DNA of 64,000 nucleotides from Acidimicrobiaceae bacterium (GTDB taxonomy: Bacteria > Actinomycetota > Acidimicrobiia > Acidimicrobiales > Poriferisodalaceae): the NCBI GenBank assembly GCA_905182565.1, contig CAJJCB010000022.1:1-64000 (forward strand), in the 5' to 3' direction. A program made the position numbers and the translations under genes. Under the pieces are notes generated by a model. That model searched no databases. It saw only the letters and a list, made by a program, of their open reading frames with translations, and was not told where the DNA came from. Shown in pieces: positions 16,392 through 19,667 of the stretch; the stretch's first letter is position 1, and each line of letters starts with the position of its first letter.

Positions 16392-16865
16392 GTGGACCTT
16401 ATTGATCGGGAAATCCTGCATATCCTACAAACAGATGTGTCTATCTCAGCACGCGAACTTGGGGAACAGGTTGGGCTAACAGCCACACCCTGCTGGAGAA
16501 GAGTGCAAAATCTAATGAAAGAAGGAGTGATCCTTAACCGAGTTGCATTACTCGATCCTGAGTTACTTAATCTTGGAATCAATGCTCTAGTTCAAATTAG
16601 AACTAATGATCACTCAGCCTTATGGTTGCAAGACTTCCAAACGGCCATCGGAGAATTTCCTGAGATCATCGAAGCGATCCGCACCTCCGGCGAAATCGAC
16701 TACATGCTTCGAGTCATAGTTCCCGATATTCGGACCTACGACAGTTTCTACAAGCGGCTTATAAATCGCGTTTCGTTATACGACGTCAGGACTATTTTTG
16801 AAATGGAGAGTTTAAAGAAAACCACTGCCTTGCCTCTCGATTACGCCCGGTTTGAAAATATCTAA
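16392..16865 (+). CDS. Lrp/AsnC family transcriptional regulator
   Basis: A 157-residue regulator: N-terminal helix-turn-helix (DREILHILQTDVSISAREL then GLTATPCWRRVQNLMKEGVI) and a C-terminal RAM domain (EIIEAIRTSGEIDYMLRVIV, with the conserved GxxDY). It binds amino acids or related metabolites and acts as an octamer or dimer on DNA. GTG start. It converges on the UGSC selenoprotein gene, their 3' ends overlapping by four bases. Confidence 0.93.
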   Translation: MDLIDREILHILQTDVSISARELGEQVGLTATPCWRRVQNLMKEGVILNRVALLDPELLNLGINALVQIRTNDHSALWLQDFQTAIGEFPEIIEAIRTSGEIDYMLRVIVPDIRTYDSFYKRLINRVSLYDVRTIFEMESLKKTTALPLDYARFENI

Positions 16866-17380
16866 CTGATCAAAACCACTTCTGCGAAAACAGCAGCTGC
16901 GAGTTCGGCTCGCTCTCGCAAACCGGCCATGTCAGCGCTTGCAATCGGATGTTCTATGACGGCAAATTGATGATCCGGTACGCCCTGAACTCGCGCCATC
17001 AACTCAGCTGCGTCTACGAAGGCACTAGTCATAATACTCATAGCCGGCACTCCATAACGCTCGGCTACAACTGCGTCATGCAAACTGCATGACGAACAGC
17101 TGCCTCAATCCCCCACCCCGCTTAGCACAGCGTCCCAGCCAACAATTTCTGCCATAAGCTCATCTTCAGCGGGAGCACTGTAGTTGCTCTTAATCCTTTG
17201 CACTACCTTTTGAACGCCATATTTATCTTCTAAAATTTGGGATAAATATTCAAAAAATGGCGCAGTATTTTCTTTACCATTCGAAATAATACCAACTGTT
17301 TTTCCGCGTAATTCAAGCAGCCGATCTGCCGGTCTCTGGTTTATTTTTGTTTCTTCATAGCTTGGGTTTAGAAGCTCCAT
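16862..17380 (-). CDS. UGSC-family selenoprotein (in-frame TGA = selenocysteine)
   Basis: One continuous reading frame of 172 codons interrupted only by a TGA at 17105-17107. Residues 1-91 (ending VLSGVGD) and the part after the TGA are in the same frame and together read GVGD-U-GSCSSCSLHDAVV, the hallmark of the UGSC family, whose Cys homologues have CGSC at this site. The start segment LRGKTVGIISNGKENTAPF and the tail VIEHP also fit the family. U92 with the following Cys suggests a thiol/selenol redox or reductive role; the reaction is unknown. A SECIS-like stem-loop sits just behind the TGA. The ATG is two bases after the stop of the 350-aa partner gene, so the two are translationally coupled. 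An ordinary gene caller would report two short ORFs (17105-17380 and 16862-17083). Confidence 0.88.
17063..17104 (-). promoter_or_regulatory. Bacterial SECIS-like stem-loop after the TGA
   Basis: On the minus strand, 18 bases separate the TGA from a 5-base apical loop AGTTT (17082-17086) closed by a perfect 8-bp stem, CGTCATGC with GCATGACG (17074-17094). A weaker lower stem (GGC with GCC plus G-U pairs, one bulge) can extend it back to the base after the TGA. A G in the first two loop positions and a UGA-to-loop distance of roughly 16-37 bases are, as I recall, the rules for bacterial SECIS elements; both are met. Confidence 0.8.
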
Positions 17381-18518: not shown

Positions 18519-19667
18519 CTATGAAGCAGCCGCTACAAGCTGATCGCCACCAATAGGGAGAGTGGAAAGATCGATATCGTAAAGCTCGGCAACGTTGTTA
18601 CACAAGATATCTATACGCTGCTCAGCCGAAAGGTTAGCTGCATGTTTGTCCAGAAGATCTTGACTCCAGGGCCAGGTGCTATCACTATGTGGAAAATCAT
18701 TCGCCCATAGAAGTCTTTTGTGATTAACATCGTTAACCATTTTGAAGGCAACCCAATCATCCTGAAATGTGGTGTAGATATGCTCGCTAAAATACTCACT
18801 TGGTAATTTAGACAGCTCTTGTCCCGGCGGCAACCAAAATCGATGCCTGTTATACGCATGGTCCATTCTGTACATGTAGTGAGGGACCCATCCTGCATCT
18901 GCTTCCACACAGACGACTTTAAGACCAGGGTTTCGTTCAAAAACTCCACCAAAAACAAGAGTTCCCATGATGTCTTGATTCGCCCGGATGATAGTCATAA
19001 AGGAATTAGCCTTTGGGCCTCTGGGTTTACCTGACTCTCGAGTCGTAAGGATGTGCCAGGAAACAGGCATTTTCAAATCAGTCGCTGCTTCCCAAAAGGG
19101 ATCCCATTGAGGGTCATCAAAATCGAACTCAGTACAAGGATTCCCTGGCATCATCACACCGCGCAATCCTGCATTTTTCATTCTTTCAAGATCTGAAATA
19201 CCTTCGGCTACTGAACGAAGAGGCGTTTGTCCTATGCCCAGTAATCGGTTTGTATCAACAGAGCAGTAATCGCTAATCCAACGATTGTATGCATCCATTG
19301 TTGCTTGTTTGTAATCCTCATCAGGGTGGTTGCACAGAACCATTCCGACTGATGGGTAAATAACTTCTGCAGATACTCCATCTTTATTTTGATCAGCAAT
19401 TCTGTAGTCGGAATCCCAACTGCTTCTAGGAAGCTCGTGCCATTTCGCTTTTGGGTTCAGATCTTCAGGAGCTTGACCTGCAGCTGCTATCAAACCCATA
19501 TTGATTGTTCGTTTCATCCCATCGATAACGTACAAGTCGCCTTTATCTTCGGTTTCCACAACATGGGGAGCTACATCACGCCATTTCGGATCGATATAAT
19601 CCGTATACGTATTGGGGGCTTCAGCTATGTGGGAATCTGCTGAAATAATTGGATGGTCAACCTGCAT
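18519..19667 (-). CDS. Amidohydrolase 2 family metal-dependent hydrolase
   Basis: A 382-residue TIM-barrel amidohydrolase of the ACMSD/5-carboxyvanillate decarboxylase type. The N-terminal metal pattern appears as ISADSHIAE (DSH in place of the common DxH), a barrel His in PVSWHILTT, and the late metal Asp in WANDFPHSDSTWPWS. Such enzymes decarboxylate or hydrolyse small aromatic or heterocyclic acids. It lies 83 bases upstream of the UGSC partner gene on the same strand, so it may belong to that operon. Confidence 0.85.
   Translation of the reverse strand: MQVDHPIISADSHIAEAPNTYTDYIDPKWRDVAPHVVETEDKGDLYVIDGMKRTINMGLIAAAGQAPEDLNPKAKWHELPRSSWDSDYRIADQNKDGVSAEVIYPSVGMVLCNHPDEDYKQATMDAYNRWISDYCSVDTNRLLGIGQTPLRSVAEGISDLERMKNAGLRGVMMPGNPCTEFDFDDPQWDPFWEAATDLKMPVSWHILTTRESGKPRGPKANSFMTIIRANQDIMGTLVFGGVFERNPGLKVVCVEADAGWVPHYMYRMDHAYNRHRFWLPPGQELSKLPSEYFSEHIYTTFQDDWVAFKMVNDVNHKRLLWANDFPHSDSTWPWSQDLLDKHAANLSAEQRIDILCNNVAELYDIDLSTLPIGGDQLVAAAS

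Follow-up and report, generated by a model that had tools for sequence, protein, structure and literature searches.

The window, the whole stretch of 64,000 nucleotides of acidimicrobial DNA that was analysed, contains a UGSC-family gene that almost beyond doubt encodes a selenoprotein and that, on sequence evidence, is accompanied by the gene of an obligate partner, a 350-aa protein newly reported here as such. The UGSC family has been on record since 2008 (PMC2398784) as an abundant environmental selenoprotein family without assigned function, and the protein of the window is a further member of it, found in Acidimicrobiales. The coordinates of the gene, its recoded codon and its neighbours are collected in Table 1.

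Table 1. Features of the UGSC locus in the window.
Feature	Coordinates	Strand	Basis or remark
UGSC-family selenoprotein gene (predicted), 172 aa with Sec92	16862..17380	-	Read-through translation; PF24696 match; AlphaFold2 model
TGA predicted to be read as selenocysteine (Sec92), residue 1 of the UGSC motif	17105..17107	-	TGA/Cys exchange in homologues
SECIS-like stem-loop directly 3' of the TGA	17067..17103 (conserved core 17076-17092)	-	Fold z; covariation
Partner gene, 350 aa	17383..18435	-	Upstream of UGSC; 2 nt separate its stop from the UGSC start
Amidohydrolase family 2 (PF04909)	18519..19667	-	Pfam match; first gene of a probable three-gene operon
Lrp/AsnC-type regulator	16392..16865	+	Pfam match; convergent with UGSC, overlaps its last codon

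The original prediction had joined two ORFs of a shared frame across a single TGA and assigned the product to the UGSC family, and both proposals were confirmed. An ATG at position 17380 opens a reading frame that reaches the TGA at 17107-17105 and then continues to a stop ending at 16862, this TGA, where standard gene callers split the gene, being the sole interruption; the lower ORF (16862-17083) drawn originally simply begins at the first possible start past it. Read-through yields a product of 172 aa with U92 embedded in GVGD-U-GSCSSCSLHD, which is matched by the Pfam UGSC profile (PF24696) over residues 3-168 (E 3.4e-47; 161.2 bits, cut-off 25) and scores 123.2 bits, marginally below the cut-off of 125, with the NCBIfam model NF041046 (UGSC_fam). 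The [U/C]-G-S-C motif is present as U92-G-S-C, and the positions invariant across 54 sequences were U/C92, G93, C95, H144, P145 and P6. The third cysteine of UGSCxxC was considered as a conserved third ligand and ruled out, being often replaced by Ala, Ser or Trp in homologues.

To judge the recoding we used 136 homologous stretches from relatives and named genomes, 135 of which could be scored at the Sec codon. In that column the set carried TGA in 52 cases and Cys in the other 83, so that, as foreseen, the cysteine of the Cys forms aligns to U92; no other in-frame TGA was found inside any of the 135 matches, and a tree of 129 sequences required a minimum of three Sec/Cys switches. The TGA is kept in a relative of the same genus (L063, apparently the same record as contig 226 of genome G001), and comparison of the window with it (NG86) gave dN/dS of 0.036/0.63 for the part preceding the TGA and 0.069/0.49 for the part that follows. 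This ratio remains low beyond the TGA, indicating that protein-level constraint persists in the downstream half.

The stem-loop that had been noticed downstream of the TGA also stood up to analysis, with a fold z of -3.0 against shuffled sequences. Its core consists of 7 bp closed by a 3-nt loop, GUU, whose first nucleotide is the 20th after the UGA. In bacterial SECIS elements the apical loop lies about 16-37 nt downstream of the UGA and starts with G, and the loop of the window, with a G at its first position, fits this range. Among 28 distinct Sec-type sequences, 94.9% of the cells of the seven-pair core were paired, compensatory changes on both sides had occurred in 5 of the 7 pairs, and the covariation score was reached by no shuffle. 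Between the window and L063, the substitutions C98S and H101V correspond to the two sides of G-C to C-G swaps by which the stem stays paired; at these positions the RNA stem overrides the protein sequence. Changes of the third cysteine in relatives (TGC to TGG or TCC) were likewise matched by changes on the opposite strand of the stem, which is thereby kept. Randomisation of synonymous codons in the stem region gave a mean z of -1.1 for Sec forms and -0.5 for Cys forms (p 0.001), a difference that holds on average only, few individual sequences being extreme; because this procedure separates the two forms only on average, the count of covarying pairs is the better evidence for the stem.

The genome (2.65 Mb, 95.6% complete) was searched for the Sec machinery and all four genes were found: selC, a tRNA-Sec with a TCA anticodon (UCA in RNA), at C22:115237; selA at C22:130700, directly followed by selB at C22:131824; and selD at C12:21547 (L146), itself a Sec form with GAGUACK at its catalytic site. 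Absence of selB and selC, which had been named as the outcome that would speak against recoding, was thus not encountered. Across the order Acidimicrobiales, a tally read from tables, which give no detailed match for two of the UGSC-positive genomes (G056 and G063), counted a TGA-form UGSC in 64 genomes out of 99. SelB exceeded its cut-off in 63 of these 64, the exception being a genome of 84% completeness (G039), in neither of the two Cys-only genomes (G057 and G091), and in 9 of the 31 genomes lacking UGSC.

That the TGA is instead a real stop, or that the gene is a pseudogene or an assembly error, is a reading to which we give practically no credence. The window does come from a contig-level assembly. 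However, TGA occurs at the same codon in dozens of genomes and is exchanged for Cys only, constraint persists past it, the stem is maintained by compensatory change and the genome holds the full Sec machinery, so that this reading is ruled out at the sequence level and the earlier judgement that a chance stop was unlikely is upheld. The gene can be taken with near certainty to encode a selenoprotein.

The nearest named record, an "uncultured Acidimicrobiales bacterium" 90% identical, agrees with the acidimicrobial lineage guessed originally. The accompanying idea that the group has few recorded selenoproteins is not supported: Sec use, Sec-type UGSC included, is common in Acidimicrobiales, and at least seven selenoproteins are predicted in this genome alone, namely three UGSC proteins, three PrdB-like UPxC proteins and SelD. 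The three PrdB/GrdB-like proteins, with an in-frame TGA in UPxC, lie on contig C26 of this genome (G000; L175-L177), and PrdB/GrdB-like selenoproteins are also encoded in many genomes of the family. Two UGSC modules, one of the Sec and one of the Cys form, lie a few kilobases from each other on another actinobacterial contig (L085).

The gene directly upstream of UGSC had no family match in Pfam or NCBIfam profile searches. Of the 83 loci with enough flank, 82 (64/64 Cys and 18/19 Sec loci) have a homologue of it immediately beside UGSC and in the same orientation, and in the single exception (L056) an ORF map places the partner just upstream. In L050/L036 partner and UGSC occupy one uninterrupted frame, and the two genes are also adjacent on RefSeq plasmids of Arthrobacter, Halorientalis, Natrinema and Roseovarius. 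The partner may come before or after UGSC; what is conserved is therefore the pair and not one gene order. A domain named "Unknown_1" was described as a fusion to UGSC in 2008 (PMC2398784), and the partner is probably this domain. Its invariant residues include Cys79, Thr108, Arg139, Arg146 and Glu180. It was modelled with a pLDDT of 89.9, and PDB fold searches returned weak matches only, none of them convincing.

Separately, we observed fused proteins of UGSC-like and partner regions on plasmids of Sporomusa and Vibrio (L170:8308-10032 and L173:8344-10029) in which MGTS replaces UGSC. They make up a branch of this architecture that lacks the thiols, and they adjoin genes for aconitase X and DUF126. 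As these fusions carry MGTS, the scaffold does not need the redox pair to function, and the chemistry of the fusions must differ from that of UGSC.

A thioredoxin fold was supposed for UGSC in 2008 (PMC2398784). The AlphaFold2 model obtained here (pLDDT 94.3, pTM 0.87) predicts a five-stranded Rossmann-like fold instead, with strands at residues 28-33, 58-63, 84-90, 113-118 and 139-142 and a helix after each. In the model Sec92 is placed between strand 84-90 and helix 93-108, at the N-terminus of the latter, and Cys95 lies in the first turn of that helix. The thioredoxin order beta-alpha-beta-alpha-beta-beta-alpha is absent, the model being five consecutive beta-alpha units with no paired beta3-beta4 hairpin; this high-confidence model, which is not a crystal structure, thus argues that UGSC lacks a thioredoxin fold, against the 2008 guess. 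Fold comparison with the PDB returned many unrelated and unspecific Rossmann- or flavodoxin-like chains, the best of which (Z 11.8; 8s7v_H, from the methyl-coenzyme M reductase activation complex) was only 1.2 above the next, and PDB sequence searches gave no credible relatives of UGSC, the partner or the PrdB-like proteins.

Comparison of UGSC with the PrdB/GrdB-like proteins by hhalign produced a weak match (score 33.6, P 4e-4, probability 34%, 68 columns), which sets Sec on Sec and extends over the following strand and the HP/FP region. As controls, 19 unrelated neighbour families scored at most 23.5 and the partner 17.0. The Pfam GRDB profile (PF07355) gave no UGSC match even at E 10; the partner, for its part, showed no similarity to known pyruvoyl subunits, its lack of any Pfam or NCBIfam match including the pyruvoyl-type GrdE/PrdA subunit. 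The likeness to GrdB/PrdB weakly suggests a common origin, as a lead and not as membership.

The surroundings of the pair were compared by neighbour clustering with GC-frame weighting and profile searches, the loci being of high GC and the gene labels of the ORF maps approximate. In the window the amidohydrolase, partner and UGSC genes form a probable operon, and the Lrp/AsnC-type gene, whose place is held by a convergent gene in L063 too, is a possible regulator of it. Homologues of the amidohydrolase gene occurred no farther than 6 kb from UGSC at 30/64 Cys loci and at 2/19 Sec loci. Around the pair, Cys-type actinobacteria carry ADH, ALDH, SDR, amidohydrolase, IclR and ABC transporter genes, and annotated plasmids carry CoA-transferases, C-C lyases and TTT/TRAP carboxylate transporters; these catabolic neighbours place UGSC in the catabolism of small organic acids or alcohols. 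Thioredoxin genes accompany some modules, in the orders trxB-trxA-partner-UGSC (Arthrobacter) and partner-UGSC-trxB (Roseovarius), with trxB close to the pair in Variovorax and trxA/trxB also near two further loci (L102 and L109). Single-sequence queries, which may miss distant thioredoxins, detected none beside UGSC in the window and one at only a few genomic loci. Other recurrent neighbours were a small CxEC protein of 75-90 aa (L085, L087, L090 and other Cys loci), which is resembled by a fused C-terminal CxxC extension of the Arthrobacter UGSC (L167:10054-10869), and a phosphosulfolactate-synthase-like gene near the pair in a bacterium and an archaeon (NZ_CP012477.1, L167; NZ_CP084884.1, L171).

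Adjacency of the partner and, in some loci, of thioredoxin genes suggests a two-subunit selenium-dependent reductase. The explanation that we favour, while giving it slightly less than an even chance, is accordingly worded as a thioredoxin-fed, two-subunit Sec/Cys reductase of carboxylate or alcohol catabolism. In this mechanism UGA is recoded, as the sequence evidence shows, by the cell's own SelB and tRNA-Sec, aided by the stem-loop just downstream, and UGSC would form one subunit of an enzyme whose other subunit is the 350-aa partner, a physical binding to which neighbourhood and fusion point. Sec92, predicted at the helix N-terminus of the Rossmann-like domain with Cys95 one turn on, or the Cys found there in other lineages, would attack, as nucleophile or reductant, a small substrate of carboxylic or alcohol type that the partner holds. 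A selenenyl-sulfide would then form with the resolving Cys95 and be reduced by thioredoxin as electron donor. Apart from its different partner subunit, such an enzyme would resemble glycine and proline reductase in its way of working. Several observations count against this explanation: thioredoxin genes were detected at only a few genomic loci and not in the window, the PrdB match is weak and the GRDB profile gives none, the partner has neither likeness to pyruvoyl subunits nor a clear fold match, and the MGTS fusions lack the redox pair.

The partner might itself be the catalytic subunit, lyase- or hydratase-like and perhaps remotely related to class I fumarases, with UGSC providing a metal- or substrate-binding thiol or selenol and not electrons. 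Its invariant Cys79 and charged residues are compatible with such a role, as is the position of the thiol-free fused relatives beside aconitase X, and its top Foldseek match was a fumarate hydratase subunit (E 2.6e-4); that match, however, has a TM-score of 0.26 and a Z of about 6, within the noise band of the tool, and redox turnover is favoured by the thioredoxin genes that accompany several modules, so that we regard catalysis by the partner as rather unlikely. Still less probable is that UGSC works as a general thiol-disulfide oxidoreductase of thioredoxin fold through its UxxC redox pair, the partner being a client or scaffold. The UxxC motif is indeed present, and a 2026 review counts UGSC among redox selenoproteins, but the repeated beta-alpha units of the model without the hairpin and the unspecific Rossmann/flavodoxin-like PDB matches do not agree with that fold, and obligate pairing with one specific partner would be unusual for such an enzyme.

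Extended beyond the window, the thioredoxin-fed reductase would make UGSC and its partner an unrecognised class of thioredoxin-dependent two-subunit selenoenzymes, in which small organic acids or alcohols are cleaved or reduced by a GrdB/PrdB-like Sec subunit together with a non-pyruvoyl substrate subunit; the class would serve organisms whose catabolic gene sets are of aerobic type and would be widespread among actinobacteria, proteobacteria and haloarchaea. We offer this generalisation as a speculative one, doubtful as a whole. The present analysis contributes the obligate partner, rejects the thioredoxin fold on the strength of a model and puts forward the Grd/Prd-like, thioredoxin-fed two-subunit enzyme as a working hypothesis; a literature search of partial coverage turned up no paper that states these points. 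Taken together, the partner, the fold, the Grd/Prd hint and the thioredoxin genes narrow the function of UGSC to a testable hypothesis, a thioredoxin-linked reductase, and Cys-form pairs from culturable actinobacteria make study of UGSC with its partner practical without Sec expression.

Compared with known systems, the protein of the window shows no essential difference from the UGSC family (PF24696 / NF041046; PMC2398784), with which it shares the whole-length profile match, the motif and the Sec/Cys exchange; some of the members described there have a fused partner domain, and the genome analysed holds three copies. With the Trx-like and Prx-like Sec proteins of thioredoxin fold UGSC has in common a UxxC-type motif at a helix N-terminus, but it differs in its predicted five-stranded Rossmann-like sandwich. 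The glycine and D-proline reductase subunits GrdB and PrdB (PF07355) share with it UxxC at a predicted strand-to-helix turn and a similar following segment. Thioredoxin genes adjoin grd operons, and the dedicated thioredoxin genes beside some UGSC modules are a further likeness. UGSC differs from GrdB/PrdB in lacking a GRDB profile match, in having the unrelated 350-aa partner in place of a GrdE/PrdA-like pyruvoyl subunit, and in residing in genomes full of aerobic-type catabolic genes.
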